IMG/VR virus record: IMGVR_UViG_3300017748_000096
Location: 1 to 27,889 of that record
Length of the DNA: 27,889 nucleotides
Source: a virus
Strand: one strand, 5' to 3'
This document shows, one piece after another, positions 1,674-13,820 of the stretch. The notes under the pieces are model-generated. The model was not told where the DNA came from. It ran no database searches and saw only the letters and a list, made by a program, of their open reading frames with translations. Numbering within the stretch: position 1 is the stretch's first letter; the number at the start of each line of letters is the position of its first letter. Both the position numbers and the translations under genes were made by a program.

Positions 1674-2260
1674 AGTAATGCTTCTTTAGCTAACATTAAC
1701 AAAACTTCAGCAGCAGCATCTTCCTCAGATATCTCTTGAGCAGAAAAATCTACCTTATCTACAAAGAATCCTTCTATTGAGAAGCCTTTGACCTTGTTGG
1801 TCTTTACATAGTTATTCCAAATGTCATCGTTGTTGACCTTCATAGAAACCATCCAAGTTCCTACTGGAACATCTAAACCATAAATTCTAGACTTATCTTT
1901 TTCGTCATCCTCAACAAGCCAAGACTCAACAACGCTAAGTCCGTTAAGCTCTACCTCATGCTCTAGTGTAGACTCGTTTTGGTTGCTGTTTTGAAAAAAC
2001 AACTCACTAGCCTTTCTGATCGTTTCTTTTGTAAAGTACACATAAAACTCCTCATCTCCATTTTGACGATAGATGGGTTTGTTAGGGATTAGAGCTGCGC
2101 CTAATAGTATTCGCTTCTCTTCATCTTGCTTTGCAAACTCTACCTCTTGGGATTTTAAGGCTACAAAGTTTTCTTCTATTGCTGGATTCTCTACAATACT
2201 AATGGCTTGAATGCCCATTAGCTCTTCCATCTCGTCTAAAATTAATTCTACTATCTTCAT
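1670..2260 (-). CDS. Prohead protease, XkdF type (Peptidase S78_2-like)
   Basis: A 196-residue protein matching the XkdF-type phage serine protease pattern as I know it: an LIPNKPIYR-like segment (about 58-65), a conserved His in STLEH (H101), GLSVVESW (108-114), VPVGTWMVSMKV (131-142) and GFSIEG (159-164). His101 and Ser161 are the likeliest catalytic residues by analogy with S78 proteases (inferred). It would cleave scaffold and capsid N-termini during head maturation. The ATG overlaps the tape-measure stop (ATGA). It is oddly placed: it follows the tail genes and is separated from scaffold and capsid by the whole fibre gene. Confidence 0.85.
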   Translation of the reverse strand: MKIVELILDEMEELMGIQAISIVENPAIEENFVALKSQEVEFAKQDEEKRILLGAALIPNKPIYRQNGDEEFYVYFTKETIRKASELFFQNSNQNESTLEHEVELNGLSVVESWLVEDDEKDKSRIYGLDVPVGTWMVSMKVNNDDIWNNYVKTNKVKGFSIEGFFVDKVDFSAQEISEEDAAAEVLLMLAKEALL

Positions 2261-3927
2261 GGGAATGTTGCTGTTCTTATTCGTTGTCTATCTAATTGAG
2301 AACCTGAGAGAACCTCGCCACTAACGACATAAGCTCTTACAGGTCGGTCAAATGTTCCTGCTATACCTTCAAGTAACTGATTTGTTCCGCTTTGTCCCAC
2401 AATATTAAATTGAGCAGGTTGTGTTGGAGCTGAAACAGTTGTAGATGGTGAGGTCGTAGCCTGTTGTTCAAATTTAGTGCTTTTTATTGTTGCTATCTGT
2501 GCAAGTCCTGTAGTCAAAGCAATTCCTGCCTTAACAAAGTTTGCTCCTGTCAAAGCATCTTGAGGAACTGCTAACTGAGCAGTAACTGCTGCTGCTGTAT
2601 TTGCAATCGCTCCAGCAAGTTGTAATGCTTTAGTTCTTTTAAATGCCTCCTCTGCGTTAGCCTGATCACCTGCGCTTAGTGCATCATTTAAGTCAGCAAA
2701 GGCTTGTGCGCTTTGACCAGCTAATTCAAATCCAGTTTTTAAATCTTCAATTTCCATATTAAAAAGATTTATCCTTTCCTCTGAAATTGCTCTTGATTGT
2801 TCTGCGTTTGCTTTATTGTATTCTGCAAACAATAACTGTCTTTGAGCTAGAGCTTGTTCATAAGCTACTGTTTCTGTTTCTTCAAAATCGACTAAATCTT
2901 GAAGTCGTTGACTTGCATTATTTATACGCAATTCCATTGAAGCTCTATATCTGTCTCGTTCTAATTTTAATAATTGTAAATTAAAATCTCTTTTTCTTTT
3001 TAATACTTTATTGTCACCTGCAACATTAACATCTTCTAATTCAATATTTTTTTCTATGTTTTCAAGTTGCTCTTTTTCTCTGTCAATTATTGAACCTCTT
3101 AATAATAAAGATTGAGCATCATTTTCGTTTTTTAACTCTTGCAAACTAACAAATTCTTGAAGAAGTCCATTTTGATTTGCAAGCCTTTCAGAACTAACGC
3201 TTGTCGTTCTTTCATTTAACTCTTCAATTTGTAGTTGTTTTTGGGCAAGAGCAACACCATCTGAATGTTTCTTAGTTATAAATTCTCTTAATTGAGCAGC
3301 TTTTATTTGAATTTCAATTTGACCTTTTTCTAGGGAGATTTGTTCTTGAGTTAATGAAGCAATTTTGTCATTTGCTTGAAGTCTTCTTTCTATGCTTAAA
3401 GTTATGTCATCTCTTATTTGCCTTTCAACTTCAATTAACTGTTGTTGCTGTAATTGGATTCTTTGTCTTTCAACTTCTGCATCTAATGCTTTTTTCTCTA
3501 ATTCTACTAACAAAGCTGCTTTATCTGCAACATCTACTATTGCTCCACCAATTCCTGATGGGCCTAAATTTGTTAATATTTGAGGAAGATTATTAATGAA
3601 TCCAGTTAAAGTTAACATTGCTTGATTAACTTTGTCAATAGCAAATTGAGTCTGTTCAAAAATTCCTTTAACAATAGCAAATGCACCAGCAGCTACTACT
3701 GCTCCTTTTATATTTTTAACAAATGATTTAAGAGTGCTATCTGTTTTTTTTAGAGTTTTGCCTGACTCTTTAACTTCTTTGTCCATTTTGTCAAAGCTCT
3801 TCTTTGACTCACTACCGACATCTTCTACTGTATCTACTAAATCTTCAATAGACTTATTTAACTTCTGTATCTTGTTTTCAATACCTGAAGTATCACCCTC
3901 AATTCTTATCGTTTCAACTACTGCCAT
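2257..3927 (-). CDS. Tail tape measure protein (short)
   Basis: A 556-residue protein. The N-terminal part (about 1-75) is Lys/Asp/Ser-rich heptad-like sequence. Next comes a Gly/Ala hydrophobic stretch (about 70-130), then a long, highly charged coiled coil (about 135-420). An Ala-rich hydrophobic segment follows (about 440-490, AGAIANTAAAVTAQLA) and then a Gln/Thr/Pro-rich tail. Coiled coil plus internal hydrophobic helices, and the position after tail genes, fit a tape measure that sets tail length and enters the host envelope. At the usual ~0.15 nm per residue it predicts a short tail (~80 nm). The start overlaps the stop of a 45-codon gene (TAATG). Confidence 0.75.
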   Translation of the reverse strand: MAVVETIRIEGDTSGIENKIQKLNKSIEDLVDTVEDVGSESKKSFDKMDKEVKESGKTLKKTDSTLKSFVKNIKGAVVAAGAFAIVKGIFEQTQFAIDKVNQAMLTLTGFINNLPQILTNLGPSGIGGAIVDVADKAALLVELEKKALDAEVERQRIQLQQQQLIEVERQIRDDITLSIERRLQANDKIASLTQEQISLEKGQIEIQIKAAQLREFITKKHSDGVALAQKQLQIEELNERTTSVSSERLANQNGLLQEFVSLQELKNENDAQSLLLRGSIIDREKEQLENIEKNIELEDVNVAGDNKVLKRKRDFNLQLLKLERDRYRASMELRINNASQRLQDLVDFEETETVAYEQALAQRQLLFAEYNKANAEQSRAISEERINLFNMEIEDLKTGFELAGQSAQAFADLNDALSAGDQANAEEAFKRTKALQLAGAIANTAAAVTAQLAVPQDALTGANFVKAGIALTTGLAQIATIKSTKFEQQATTSPSTTVSAPTQPAQFNIVGQSGTNQLLEGIAGTFDRPVRAYVVSGEVLSGSQLDRQRIRTATFP

Positions 3928-7311: not shown

Positions 7312-7823
7312 TATTTCTTAGTTTTTCTTGTAAATGCTTGAAAATCGTCTACGTTTAATTCAAAGGCTGTTACTATCTCAGCGGGTAATTGTTGAAACGC
7401 TAGGTTGAATGGTTTTGTAAAAAACTTGGTTGGTTTTATTCCGTTGTAGTATATGCTTTTTGCTATTGCATACTGCATACTTTTTCTTTTTATAAACCTT
7501 CCTGTTTTTTTATCTCTCACCCCTGATAACCCTCTCTTGATTACCCATTGAGAAAACACACGAGATGGAGGCATCTTATTCGTATAAGCATAAGGGGTGT
7601 CGTATTTTCTTTTTGTACCACTAACACCTGAATCAAGGAACTCACCATATTTCTCCATATCTATTTCCATAGAGAATGAATTTGGCCCTGTATCTGTTTC
7701 ATAGGTTATTGACTCTGATAAAGCTCCTGTTACATTGTGCTTTCTTAGATTCTTTCTTGACTGCTCTACTATTTGAGTAGCAAACCTATCTAGTACCGAT
7801 TTTATGTTTTGCTCTCTTGCCAT
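7311..7823 (-). CDS. HK97 gp10-like tail completion / neck protein
   Basis: A 170-residue basic protein. The segment RKNLRKHNVTGALSESI (about 23-39), the following EKYGEFLDSGVSGT and the Lys/Arg-rich middle match the pattern of HK97 gp10-type connector/tail-completion proteins: N-terminal helix, TGxLxxSI motif, then YGxFLDxG. These proteins finish the head-proximal end of the tail. It overlaps the preceding gene (TAATG), which is probably the tail terminator. The family call is from motif memory, not a search. Confidence 0.7.
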   Translation of the reverse strand: MAREQNIKSVLDRFATQIVEQSRKNLRKHNVTGALSESITYETDTGPNSFSMEIDMEKYGEFLDSGVSGTKRKYDTPYAYTNKMPPSRVFSQWVIKRGLSGVRDKKTGRFIKRKSMQYAIAKSIYYNGIKPTKFFTKPFNLAFQQLPAEIVTAFELNVDDFQAFTRKTKK

Positions 7824-8290
7824 TAGCAGGTACTGATTTCTGTGTTAGGCATTAGCACATCAAACGTAGCTCCCCATCCTGCTAGTAAGTTTTCAAAGCG
7901 TTCTGTGAAAGGTGTGCATACCACATTACCATCTAATTGATACAGGTCTTTGTACAGGTCACCTCTACGAAGCTCAACGACTACAGAATTGATGACAGCC
8001 AGTTGTGTGTTTAGTATGTCCTGCTCATTGCTTATGCCAAAGAAGGGATCGTTTTGGTCACGAATGTTCTCTTTAGTTTCATCAACAACATCCATTGCCA
8101 TGACTGTCAAGTTCACTCTTACAATCTGTCCTTCAAAAGATGTTTGGTTTACTATGATATGACCTAAAGGAAATATGGTTTGTTTGTTTAAGTCTACATC
8201 AAAGATGTCTCCAAAGGTTACTACGTTACATTGGCTGTTTGCAAGTAGTTGTGTTTTTATGGTTTCTGTAATTTTATAAAACTGCCTCAT
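7823..8290 (-). CDS. Probable tail terminator / minor tail protein
   Basis: A 155-residue alpha/beta protein with an N-terminal helix (KITETIKTQLL), a beta-rich middle (VNLTVMAMDVV) and a Trp/Gly-rich end (LLAGWGATFDVLMP). Its size and its place directly before a gp10-like gene fit the tail-terminator family. The ATG overlaps the stop of the -1 frame extension (ATGA at 8290-8287), coupling it to the chaperone gene. Assignment is by context and overall pattern. Confidence 0.6.
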   Translation of the reverse strand: MRQFYKITETIKTQLLANSQCNVVTFGDIFDVDLNKQTIFPLGHIIVNQTSFEGQIVRVNLTVMAMDVVDETKENIRDQNDPFFGISNEQDILNTQLAVINSVVVELRRGDLYKDLYQLDGNVVCTPFTERFENLLAGWGATFDVLMPNTEISTC

Positions 8291-8544
8291 TTCATTTTGC
8301 TTTTGAGTATGTTGTTTTCTGTTTCGCTTTTGTGTTTTTCAAAGGATAAAAAGGTAAGACATTGTCTAGCTGATAATTTTGAGACTTCGTCAAATCTTCT
8401 AACATCTCCTTGACTAAGCGAATAGAATGTAGTGTACCATCCCCATCGTTTGGCGAATGCTCCTTGTCTGCTGAAATCTTCTTGTTCCTGCTGTTCTCCA
8501 AAGAGGTCAGGGTAGTTGTTAGCAAATCTTTTCCTAAAGTCCAA
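8287..8544 (-). CDS. -1 frame C-terminal extension of the tail assembly chaperone
   Basis: 85 codons in the -1 frame relative to the 243-codon gene that covers the same DNA. There is no ATG; the frame opens with TTG inside a run of nine T residues. It encodes a domain-like sequence (GAFAKRWGWYTTFYSLSQGD then FDEVSKLSARQCLTFLSFEK) resembling the T part of G/GT-type tail assembly chaperones. Its stop overlaps the next ATG (ATGA). Expression by -1 frameshifting would give a fusion of 160 + 85 residues. The alternative is a homopolymer sequencing error that split one gene. Confidence 0.7.
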   Translation of the reverse strand: MDFRKRFANNYPDLFGEQQEQEDFSRQGAFAKRWGWYTTFYSLSQGDVRRFDEVSKLSARQCLTFLSFEKHKSETENNILKSKMK

Positions 8545-9023
8545 AAAAAAACCACAGCTCCCATCACTACATCCATAGGCGCATCCTTCATCAAGTGTGA
8601 GTAGTTATCAGAACTCTCATACTTTTCTATTGTATATCTCTTTCCGATCTTCCTTTTGATTGGCCTGTATAGAACTGCCATTGTCTTGTGGAGGTTTTTG
8701 ACATCTGCCATGTATGTATCTAGATCAACAAACTCACCATAGGAAATGTCTTCTAATGAAGGGATGAATCCAAACTCTTTATTGTCTAATTTAAATCTTT
8801 GCGTTAGACGAGGTCTTTCTCTCATCATATTCGTTAGCTTATGAGAAACCTTAGAAACGTCTTTAAATCGAATGTTAGGCAACTCATTAAACGGAACATT
8901 GCAGAATATGTCAAGCATCTTTTTACTAATGAACTCATCATCACCATCAAGCCTAGCAAAGCGTTGATACTGACTTAGTGTGATTTCCTTTAATGAAGTG
9001 GGCACAATTACTTTGAGTTCCAT
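8292..9023 (-). CDS. Putative tail assembly chaperone (G-like), 0-frame product
   Basis: A 243-residue protein starting at an ATG 21 bases after the large terminase. Residues 1-160 are mixed helical, with segments such as TSLKEITLSQYQRFARL and GEFVDLDTYMADV that resemble chaperone N-domains of Bacteroidetes phages. At residue 159-160 (FF) a T9 run allows a shift into another frame. The 0 frame continues for 83 more residues that overlap the -1 extension almost completely, both frames ending within five bases. Two C-termini of nearly equal length from one DNA segment would be unusual. The chaperone call is by pattern; it is separated from the tape measure by five genes, unlike the usual adjacency. 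Confidence 0.6.
   Translation of the reverse strand: MELKVIVPTSLKEITLSQYQRFARLDGDDEFISKKMLDIFCNVPFNELPNIRFKDVSKVSHKLTNMMRERPRLTQRFKLDNKEFGFIPSLEDISYGEFVDLDTYMADVKNLHKTMAVLYRPIKRKIGKRYTIEKYESSDNYSHLMKDAPMDVVMGAVVFFWTLGKDLLTTTLTSLENSRNKKISADKEHSPNDGDGTLHSIRLVKEMLEDLTKSQNYQLDNVLPFYPLKNTKAKQKTTYSKAK
8544..8550 (-). promoter_or_regulatory. Candidate -1 ribosomal frameshift site (T TTT TTT)
   Basis: On the minus strand the codons are GTT TTT TTT TGG, so nine T residues (8551-8543) contain the heptamer T_TTT_TTT in the phase needed for -1 slippage (X XXY YYZ). After slippage the next codon is TTG at 8544-8542, which enters the 85-codon frame. I did not establish a downstream pseudoknot or hairpin. 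Confidence 0.6.
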
Positions 9024-9044: not shown

Positions 9045-10202
9045 TTATCTTATTGCATACCTTCCGTAATTGGGTTTGCTTAGTCTGTTAAAGGTAGCAT
9101 ATCTGACCGCATCTATGGCATGATTGAACTTGTCAATGGGTTTGTTTAATAGGTTACCGTTCTTGTCCTCTTGCCATTTGTAATTTTGAAACTCTCTAAT
9201 TGTGTTGTCACTTCCTTTGGTTACATATATCTTATGACGTTTTAAGATGTCTATGCCTGCCATTATGCTATCAGCACCTTTTGCAGTAGGCTTTATGTTC
9301 CATCCAAATCTGTGAAGCTCTTCTATACTTTTAGGCTCTGCTGAGTCTGCCCATATCTCATCATATCTTGTAAGACCTAACTCTGCAAACTTATCTGATA
9401 TGTCTGAATTTGTAAGCTGTGTGTGATACATCATCTCGTGAATGTATAAGTCATCACCATCCTTGTAAACCTGAACAAGAGATGTTGGATCATTCGTGAA
9501 TCCAAAGTCAAGACCAAATGAAACCAACTGACCTTTGGGATCATCTACTACATTAAACTGAAACACAGTAGCTCTTGATAAACCTCTCTCACCTAATCCA
9601 TAGATTCTCCAGTAATCATCATCTGTACCCTGTAACCTTTCTATCTCATCTACGATTGTTTGCTCTAGGAACGGATTGTCTTTATATGTGCTTTGTATGT
9701 ATGTTACATCATCCCTTACAAGGAGCTTATCATATATCCAATGAAAAGAGTCAGATGGGTTGTAGTCAAGCCATATCTTATCAGTTGTTCTAACAAGTAA
9801 TTGAAAGAAATCTTCCCACGTTAGTTCATTTGCCTCATTGCAGAATAAGAAGTCTCTTCTTGCTCCACGTTTCTTCTGTGGTTGATCTAATGATACAAAC
9901 TCAAATAAGTTTCCATTAAGAGTGTAGGTGTAGTCAGATTTATTATGGTCTGTCTCTGAATATAAGTCTAAGTTGTTTAGTATCTCAAAGAAATCCCTGT
10001 ACGCTGTCATTTTAAGCGATGGGAGTGACTTTCTTACAATAGTGAATACTTTGCCTTTGTGCTTAAATGCTTTGACGATCAGGAGCTGCAACAAAGAATA
10101 TGTTTTACCACTTCTTGTTCCTCCTTGATTGATTACAATTTTGCTTTCCGCTTGCCAGTTCTTAATGAATAATGGCCCATAATTAATCTCTAGAGTCGAC
10201 AA
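9045..10202 (-). CDS. terL: Terminase large subunit (PBSX type)
   Basis: A 385-residue ATP-driven packaging motor and nuclease. It shows Walker A GGTRSGKT (27-34), Walker B with catalytic Glu in FLFCNEANE (118-126; E123), and RNase H-like nuclease acidic residues in FGLDFGFTND (D232), ADSAEP (D286) and HAIDAVRYA (D364). Length fits the PBSX/phage_terminase_3 family. It lies just after TerS and HNH genes. No ATG is available at the start: TTG at 10202, overlapping terS by 20 bases, is the best candidate and gives an N-terminus reading EINYGPLF, normal for the family; an ATT at about 10187 is the alternative. Confidence 0.95.
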   Translation of the reverse strand: MSTLEINYGPLFIKNWQAESKIVINQGGTRSGKTYSLLQLLIVKAFKHKGKVFTIVRKSLPSLKMTAYRDFFEILNNLDLYSETDHNKSDYTYTLNGNLFEFVSLDQPQKKRGARRDFLFCNEANELTWEDFFQLLVRTTDKIWLDYNPSDSFHWIYDKLLVRDDVTYIQSTYKDNPFLEQTIVDEIERLQGTDDDYWRIYGLGERGLSRATVFQFNVVDDPKGQLVSFGLDFGFTNDPTSLVQVYKDGDDLYIHEMMYHTQLTNSDISDKFAELGLTRYDEIWADSAEPKSIEELHRFGWNIKPTAKGADSIMAGIDILKRHKIYVTKGSDNTIREFQNYKWQEDKNGNLLNKPIDKFNHAIDAVRYATFNRLSKPNYGRYAIR

Positions 10203-11968: not shown

Positions 11969-12750
11969 GTTAATGTCATTCTTAAAGTGTAGGAGTCAAT
12001 GTCATTATGGTTAACAAAAAATTCTTTGTATCTCTCTAATCCTTCTTTTAGTTTCTTATAACCCTTGTTTATGAATGACTGCTCCATTCCTATGATTCCA
12101 ATGTCTAGTGTGTTTTTGTCTACTGCTATGAAGTGAAAGTTAGAGAATGGTACATTAAACAGCTCTGTGTAAATGAATGCCTGTACGTCATATCCATATT
12201 TGTCTGCCGACCATTCAAATTTATTTAGGTCTTGAGTAGTCTTTAAGTCTGCGATGAAATTGTGTTTGGCATCATATATGTCGGCTTTACCTCTGAAAGC
12301 ATAACCCTCTAACATATCTATCGCTGGAACTTCAAAATCACAACCTCCTATCATTGATAAAACGTGTTCATTCCTTAATACAGCATCTACGATCCTCATG
12401 TTTTGGTCGTGTTCTTTTGCTGTTAATACGATTTTACTGGATTTTGCCTTTGCTTCTTTGTAGGCCTTAGAGGCCCTGCTTTGCACATTGACTATATGAA
12501 ACCTTTCCTCTATTAGATGTGGCTCTAGAACCATTGTGTGGATGAAGTTGCCTATCTCTAAAGCTGGAGAGCTTGTTTGTTGTCCGTATTGTGTTACGAA
12601 TTTGTATGTCTTAGGACTCTGATTTAAGAGCTTTATACTTGATGAACTCATCGCTGCTGATCCTAGATGACCATAATAAAAGTCATCATCATACATTTTT
12701 TTGATTAGAGCATCTCTATCCCAAGTATCTCCATTTAATAATTTTATCAT
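11965..12750 (-). CDS. RecE/exonuclease VIII-like PD-(D/E)XK nuclease
   Basis: A 261-residue protein with ALEIGNFIHTMVLEP (63-77, conserved His71), GKADIYD (154-160; D157), IADLKTT (166-172; D168-L-K170) and a downstream YGYDVQAFIY (185-194; Q190). This is the order expected of the PDDEXK_12/exodeoxyribonuclease VIII family: a 5'-3' dsDNA exonuclease producing 3' overhangs for single-strand annealing. It fits with the SSB-like and RusA-like genes in the same operon. No annealase was recognised. ATGA overlaps on both sides. Confidence 0.85.
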   Translation of the reverse strand: MIKLLNGDTWDRDALIKKMYDDDFYYGHLGSAAMSSSSIKLLNQSPKTYKFVTQYGQQTSSPALEIGNFIHTMVLEPHLIEERFHIVNVQSRASKAYKEAKAKSSKIVLTAKEHDQNMRIVDAVLRNEHVLSMIGGCDFEVPAIDMLEGYAFRGKADIYDAKHNFIADLKTTQDLNKFEWSADKYGYDVQAFIYTELFNVPFSNFHFIAVDKNTLDIGIIGMEQSFINKGYKKLKEGLERYKEFFVNHNDIDSYTLRMTLT

Positions 12751-13820
12751 TTGAATAAAAATTTACATTTTTCTGCTACTGCTTGAACTACATTTACTGT
12801 TACTGCGTTTCCACACATCTTGTACCTTTGAGAATCTGATATAGGGCCCTTTACACCTTCTTGTGTCCAGTTGTCAGGGAAACCTTGTAATCGTTCACAT
12901 TCAATAGGAGTCAATCTTCTTATTTTATCTGTATAAACTGCTTGATTGCCAGCTGTGTCTAGTGTTAGTGCTTTGCCCTTACCTACTCTGCCTCTTCTTT
13001 TTTTTGAATTTATAAAAGAATAATTAATACTGTCTCCTTTAGTTGCTTTTTCATAACCTTTTTGGGTTGCTGATTTTACTAAGATTTCATTAGACTTTAA
13101 AGTCAGAGTAGGACTATTATTATCTTTTCTCCACCTAAACCCTTCATCATATCTAAAATCTCCTATTTGTTGTGAAATTTTGTTACGTTCCATAATGTAA
13201 CTTCCTTGACTTGTTGAAGCTCTGTATCTTGTTGTGAGTGTAACGGAATTTGGGTTGGAGATTGATTTATTAATCTGTTTATTGTTTTCTGAGATAGGGA
13301 ATACTTGTCCTCCACTTCTGTCTCCAATATATCCAACAAGGTAGACTCTCTCTCGATTTTGGGGTAAAAACCAACTTGAGTTAAGCAATTGCCATTCACA
13401 TCTATAACCCCCAATGTTGGCAAAGGCTTGGATAATTGCCCAAAAGTCTTCGCCAGAGTTTGAGGAGAAAGTTCCTTTAACATTTTCCCATATAAAAAGA
13501 CGTGGTCTGCATTCGCTGATGAGTCGAATCGCTTCACTAATAAGGGAGCTTCTATCTCCTTGCATGCCTCTACGCCTTCCAGCCAAGCTAAAGTCCTGAC
13601 AAGGCGAGCCGAAAGTGATGAGATCAATTTTTGGTAAGTCTTTTCCTTGAATATCTGTAACTGATCCGACATATTTACTATTTTTAAAATTATTTTTATA
13701 TACGTCTATCGCGTATTTGTCAATCTCTGAAAAGTAAGATTCTATTTCATATCCTGCTTTTTCAAACCCTAGATGAAAACCACCTATTCCACTAAACAAA
13801 TCTAATTGTGTAAGTTTCAT
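12747..13820 (-). CDS. DNA (cytosine-5)-methyltransferase
   Basis: A 357-residue, full-length C5 methyltransferase: motif I DLFSGIGGF (7-15), motif IV GSPCQDFS with catalytic Cys74, motif VI ENV (about 111), motif VIII QNRERV (about 153), target recognition region (about 170-295), motif IX RRLTPIECERLQGFP (about 300) and motif X GNAV (near 337). It transfers a methyl group from SAM to C5 of cytosine at an unknown site. I recognise no cognate restriction enzyme with confidence, so it is probably an orphan that protects phage DNA. ATGA overlaps at both ends show stable operon membership. Confidence 0.95.
   Translation of the reverse strand: MKLTQLDLFSGIGGFHLGFEKAGYEIESYFSEIDKYAIDVYKNNFKNSKYVGSVTDIQGKDLPKIDLITFGSPCQDFSLAGRRRGMQGDRSSLISEAIRLISECRPRLFIWENVKGTFSSNSGEDFWAIIQAFANIGGYRCEWQLLNSSWFLPQNRERVYLVGYIGDRSGGQVFPISENNKQINKSISNPNSVTLTTRYRASTSQGSYIMERNKISQQIGDFRYDEGFRWRKDNNSPTLTLKSNEILVKSATQKGYEKATKGDSINYSFINSKKRRGRVGKGKALTLDTAGNQAVYTDKIRRLTPIECERLQGFPDNWTQEGVKGPISDSQRYKMCGNAVTVNVVQAVAEKCKFLFK

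Follow-up and report, generated by a model that had tools for sequence, protein, structure and literature searches.

A flavobacterial phage gene with a predicted -1 frameshift and two overlapping C-terminal tails

How many proteins does a gene encode when it runs into nine consecutive T residues and both its own frame and the -1 frame stay open for more than 80 codons beyond them? The question was raised by a gene on the minus strand, which carries most of the genes in the 27,889-base virus record analyzed here (the window). An ORF at 8292-9023 (minus strand), read directly, begins with ATG and encodes 243 amino acids. The first-pass annotation had seen in it a tail assembly chaperone with a programmed -1 frameshift and two near-equal C-termini encoded by the same DNA segment.

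Gene layout and likely role

The first 158 codons (8550-9023, minus strand; MELKVIVPTSL...GAVV), read in the 0 frame, encode an N-terminal domain that is kept in all relatives and shared by both predicted products. It leads into a run of nine T residues (T9) at 8543-8551 (minus strand; codons 158 to 161), where direct reading of GTT TTT TTT TGG confirmed a T_TTT_TTT heptamer in phase; this is the sole A/T run of at least nine within the window. Beyond the run, the 0 frame stays open for 85 codons plus a stop (8292-8549, minus strand; FFWTLGKDLLTTTLTSLE...GDGTLHSIRLVKEMLEDL...), a C-terminal tail with signs of selection on both its openness and its residues (see below), and ends at a TGA (8294-8292) five bases before the -1-frame stop, just as first annotated. 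The -1-frame tail, without an upstream ATG, comprises 87 codons plus a stop (8287-8550, minus strand; FFLDFRKR...KRWGWYTTFYSLSQGDVRRFDE...), with coding positions 8550-8290, a TGA at 8289-8287, and a WGWY motif (KRWGWY). Both lengths include an FF common to the two tails, and 255 bases (8295-8549, minus strand) are coded in two frames. The -1-frame stop overlaps the ATG (8290-8288, in ATGA) of the next gene (7823-8290, minus strand; 155 amino acids), and a stop/ATG overlap of this kind is present in 75 of 182 relatives; reading of the sequence upheld the earlier description of a -1 frame without an ATG whose stop is coupled to the next gene. Elsewhere in the window, a 169-amino-acid ORF (13163-13672, minus strand) lies nested in another frame of a C5 cytosine methyltransferase gene (12747-13820) on the same strand; a Pfam search with this ORF gave no match.

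We consider it probable, at roughly 0.8, that two proteins, with different C-termini overprinted on the same bases, arise from this gene by -1 ribosomal frameshifting. Most ribosomes would keep frame over GUU UUU UUU UGG and make a 243-amino-acid protein, and some would slip back one base at U_UUU_UUU and make one of 245 amino acids. The predicted products would have about 160 N-terminal residues in common and differ over the entire C-terminal tail, because the same ~255 bases would be read in two frames. We infer that the slip is mainly ribosomal and that the unshifted protein predominates. The shift seems to depend on the slippery run, with no obvious RNA stimulator. In Escherichia coli, shifting is weaker at U_UUU_UUU than at A_AAA_AAG (PMC5009743), and this weakness, together with the lack of a detectable 3' stimulatory structure (see below), counts against the frameshift model.

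The terminase large subunit gene (terL; 9045-10202, minus strand; Pfam Terminase_3, E 1.5e-27) lies directly upstream. From the frameshift gene onward, the order is two small genes, genes for proteins of 403 and 680 amino acids, a probable tape measure gene (2257-3927, minus strand), and a gene for an XkdF-like protease. The tape measure assignment relies on a long coiled-coil-like sequence and a weak match to phrog_167 (E 0.0018). The frameshift gene starts the apparent tail module, with the probable tape measure gene fifth downstream, and no second frameshift pair is visible there; our best guess is therefore a role resembling that of lambda G/GT. By this analogy, which we regard as somewhat favored, the two proteins would act as tail assembly chaperones (TACs), the common domain binding one partner and each C-terminal tail another, with slip efficiency setting the ratio of the two products.

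Tail assembly chaperone genes usually lie directly upstream of the tape measure gene. The four genes that intervene here count against the chaperone reading and leave appreciable, if lesser, room for some other frameshifted morphogenesis factor, such as a head-tail joining or packaging-linked protein. That alternative would also fit the position of the gene right after terL and before two connector- or terminator-like small genes, as well as the outcome of family searches: no TAC family match above cut-off was found in Pfam, PHROGs, or the PDB, and no PDB relative of the gene was found. The sole hint of a TAC family was PF10109, seen in 2 of 99 relatives below any cut-off (best E 0.034); a search of 295 genomes from the host class did not find it. 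Against it stand the G/GT-like architecture, the lack of any other visible frameshift pair in the tail module, and the absence of another pair of small genes ahead of the likely tape measure gene. The chaperone label of the first-pass annotation thus remains plausible by synteny and architecture and found no backing in Pfam, PHROGs, or the PDB. The matches that were obtained were to families of unknown function: the N-terminal domain matched phrog_32199 (E 1.1e-20), and the -1-frame tail matched phrog_38404 in 50 of 100 relatives. The two families correspond to the halves of a single gene.

The slippery site across relatives

Searches of viral contigs and genome contigs returned 182 distinct, complete copies of the gene, a single gene family sampled largely from metagenome assemblies. 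The run was found at the same place in every copy, as T9 in 176 and as T10 in 6. No run of 7 or 8 T residues was seen among them, though tandem tRNA slippage needs just 7, and where the first T was lost (giving a GGT codon), the run was lengthened at its opposite end. The comparison of homologues suggested at the outset thus revealed no relative with 7 or 8 T residues and a single continuous frame, and a slippery site in all. Moreover, an upstream ATG for the -1 domain was absent from 181 of 182 relatives, and the -1 frame has an invariant FF..FR segment that begins at the run. Translation of the -1 frame must therefore enter at the run, and an independent start of that frame was rejected on the same grounds.

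A sister clade of 15 loci (L262 and L291-L304) carries A_AAT_TTT at the same position, in the context GTA AAT TTT ATW TAC. Both frames are open there as well, for 81 to 82 codons (0 frame) and 88 to 90 codons (-1 frame). The A before AAT, at a degenerate third position, is kept in 15/15 loci, and the longest run is 4. The sister clade looks to be a natural swap of slip sites. With the run in 182/182 relatives and another canonical heptamer in the sister clade, the programmed -1 shift originally proposed from a single sequence gained considerably in support.

The swap also bears on the idea that RNA polymerase slipping on T9, rather than the ribosome, is the main source of the -1 product. All 182 members of the T-run clade have 9 to 10 T residues, a floor above the 7 that would suffice for tandem tRNA slippage, and the loss of the first T is offset by extension at the other side; both features make transcriptional slippage a possible contributor in that clade. 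In contrast, no such homopolymer exists in the sister clade, whose runs of at most 4 and invariant A_AAT_TTT in 15 loci are unusable for RNA polymerase slippage. The different slippery heptamer at this position therefore excludes polymerase slippage in the sister clade, and as the chief source of the -1 product we hold it unlikely.

The matches on genome contigs were to Bacteroidetes/Flavobacteriia MAG contigs. One chromosome-sized contig of 3.9 Mb, found among genomes belonging to the family of one of these MAG contig matches, contains a prophage-like copy (L310, at 2636679-2640347) with T9 and C-terminal tails of 69 codons (0 frame) and 92 codons (-1 frame), and is a possible laboratory system for the detection of both products. 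The cultured relatives recovered in the searches made were the Nonlabens phages P12024L and P12024S; none turned up beyond these two.

Two frames over the same bases

In the main clade, the 0 frame was open for at least 50 codons past the slip site in 172/172 relatives (50 to 94 codons, or 150 to 270 nt). In a basal group (n = 10), which includes the cultured Nonlabens phages (27 codons), the 0-frame tails were 18 to 28 codons long except in two members, L265 (82 codons) and L214 (66 codons). The long 0-frame tail is therefore dispensable for some members, a point against the dual-tail reading. The 0 frame was perhaps lengthened over an already coding -1 tail from a short-tailed ancestor. The placement of L265 and L214 among the basal loci (L207-L212, L216, L265, and L214) may indicate that the 0-frame tail was gained or lost on separate occasions. 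The near-equal tail lengths emphasized in the first-pass annotation hold for the branch to which the window belongs (85 and 87 codons in the window itself) and fail as a trait of the family: the two lengths were within 4 codons of each other in only 27 of 182 relatives.

An ordinary G/GT-like frameshift, in which the -1 tail alone matters, might leave the 0 frame open by accident or through codon bias. Taken singly, the sequences allow this. When -1 codons were resampled by codon usage, the chance of an open 0 frame was 0.33 for the window and had a median of about 0.06 for single sequences, and the cultured Nonlabens relatives do stop after 27 codons. (Permuting synonymous codons within a sequence had too little power for a decision, since codons that would make a stop are scarce in the tails to begin with.) The family as a whole told against it. 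In a tree-based null, in which the -1 amino acids were kept on the tree and silent codons changed at the rate fitted to the N-terminal domain, a mean of 21.5 tips remained open (maximum, 51; 200 runs), versus the 172/172 observed; the tree was a quick protein tree, and the null model used pooled codon usage and parsimony. The openness of the 0 frame is therefore significant only across relatives and unremarkable in one sequence.

The pattern of substitutions pointed the same way. Sites were counted over 74 pairs of relatives, each sequence being used once and basal pairs then being dropped, an approach simpler than a full likelihood test, with effects that were large relative to the controls. 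Of the opportunities for a change that is silent in the -1 frame yet creates a 0-frame stop, 4 of 445 were realized in the overlap; the N-terminal control had 177 of 886, and the stretch beyond the 0-frame stop had 16 of 47. This amounts to a depletion of approximately 20-fold. Among transitions silent in the -1 frame, those in the overlap that altered the 0-frame residue occurred at 0.109 versus 0.270 for those that did not (ratio, 0.40), while the N-terminal control gave 0.185 and 0.180 (ratio, 1.03). In 36 deeply diverged relatives, the same codon was used for a given -1 residue at a frequency of 0.659 in the overlap, with 0.398 expected; the controls were near expectation (N-terminal domain, 0.439 versus 0.407; next gene, 0.430 versus 0.398). 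Identity in the 0 frame among these 36 was 0.469, versus 0.273 in resampled sequences. Accidental openness was thus largely refuted on the family evidence from the openness null and the stop depletion, with codon conservation and 0-frame identity far above controls, and we judge it quite improbable.

The constraint also ends together with the 0 frame, further evidence against an accident. By alignment column, it spans codons 1 to about 64 of the tail and drops close to the expected level at the point where the 0-frame stop lies in most relatives; in a clade with 0-frame stops at codons 60 to 67, silent divergence climbs to 0.55 right past the stop. The check on synonymous sites proposed at the outset therefore came out in favor of overlapping coding, with silent sites constrained in the overlap up to the end of the 0 frame. 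T is the constrained third base at positions where Leu, Ile, or Met is encoded in the 0 frame; for example, columns 4 and 8 of the tail alignment had TTT in 37/37 and T-ending codons in 36/37. The 0-frame segments LGNELL..TL.YLE and GDGI..SM..LKEML..L are probably amphipathic. A 0-frame GDG/GVG motif at column 41 lies opposite the -1-frame WGW. Among 37 diverged relatives, the residue between its two Gly residues was almost always Asp or Val (-1-frame GGA or GGT), rarely Gly, and never Ala. Constraint on the 0-frame residues was moderate, not strong.

Silent constraint peaks in the first 18 codons past the run, a position that would also suit conservation caused by an element of the RNA or DNA (for example, a regulatory structure or a stimulator of frameshifting) in place of a second protein. 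No 3' stimulatory or conserved RNA fold was found, however, in three tail stretches compared with shuffled sequences in 38 relatives (mean folding z-scores of 0.04, 0.06, and 0.31) or in the consensus structure of the alignment, which was empty. With z-scores near those of shuffled sequences and an empty consensus, the conservation cannot be put down to a stimulator or a regulatory RNA; an RNA structure, furthermore, would neither exclude stops over 50 to 90 codons nor favor T where it gives 0-frame Leu, Met, or Ile. We regard such an element as very improbable. Although long T runs are error-prone, a homopolymer error or decaying gene is refuted by the presence of this run in 182 distinct sequences drawn from many assemblies, in the cultured P12024L and P12024S, and in the prophage-like copy, and by the different heptamer at the same place in the sister clade, so the exclusion of such an error called for at the outset can be regarded as accomplished.

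Together, the joint openness of the two frames beyond chance and the purifying selection on residues of both indicate dual coding. Natural selection has maintained both C-terminal tails as well as the slippery site, and the 0-frame tail is not incidental; the original suggestion of two different tails from one DNA segment thus extends to the relatives, in which both are under selection.

Comparison with known systems

Frameshifted assembly genes of phages are usually read as giving a short and an extended form. As far as sequence can tell, the keeping of both tails by selection is unusual among frameshifted genes known from phages: conserved tails occupy both frames over the same ~200 to 255 bases throughout a broad family of flavobacterial phages. 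The chance is about even that slippage acts as a switch in two directions, selecting one or the other of two complete C-terminal domains, each of which would have a separate partner during virion assembly. If so, slip efficiency would fix the ratio of two different chaperones, not of a short and an extended form, and the pair would be the first overprinted one of its kind described in a dsDNA phage; our search of the literature (open-access papers) found no case of a dual-coded tail assembly chaperone. With conserved tails in both frames, one of the two products is lost from phage genome annotation, and programs for frameshift detection that look for a 0-frame stop close to the slip will tend to overlook genes of this kind. 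The range of 0-frame tails, from 18 to 94 codons, offers a natural series for the study of one frame laid over another.

Among the closest counterparts are the Nonlabens phages P12024L and P12024S (L050 and L051), which have a homologous gene after terL with T9 and a WGWY-containing -1 tail; their 0-frame tail is just 27 codons. In P12024L, the two parts (genes 40 and 41; L050, 5001-5695) are annotated as separate hypothetical proteins. The start assigned to gene 41 is an internal ATG, which leaves out the conserved FFLSFR segment, and the frameshift was therefore missed in that annotation.

Lambda G/GT and other TAC frameshift genes were treated by Xu, Hendrix, and Duda in 2004 (as cited in PMC5009743). 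As in lambda G/GT, one tailed-phage gene here would give two products with a common N-terminus by a -1 shift at a slippery heptamer, and the -1 domain has no start of its own. In 2,476 annotated phage genes, the 0-frame stop lies a mean of 26 nt past the slip (PMC10274946), and the figure quoted there for the Xu set is 36 nt. Unlike in those systems, the 0 frame of the main clade extends for 150 to 270 nt past the slip, and the stretch itself is conserved; the unshifted protein would not be a mere truncated form, having a long conserved tail of its own that is overprinted in the main clade. The gene order also differs from that of lambda G/GT, and a sequence relation to known TAC families was not found.

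In dnaX (tau/gamma), the -1 frame stops at once and no alternative tail is coded (PMC5009743). The present gene resembles dnaX in that a -1 shift would give two C-terminal forms and differs from it in that both tails are coded. Parallels for overprinting come from RNA viruses, in which the trans-frame proteins, as here, combine a common N-terminus with an alternative tail over the same bases and were found by silent-site constraint. Examples are PIPO of potyviruses, influenza PA-X, and the arterivirus nsp2 trans-frame protein. Overprinted alternative tails made via frameshifting or slippage are thus known in RNA viruses (PMC5009743), where the host frame is that of a long established gene running well past the overlap. 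The present gene belongs instead to a dsDNA phage of Flavobacteriia, and its two tails are both short, with stops no more than tens of bases apart.
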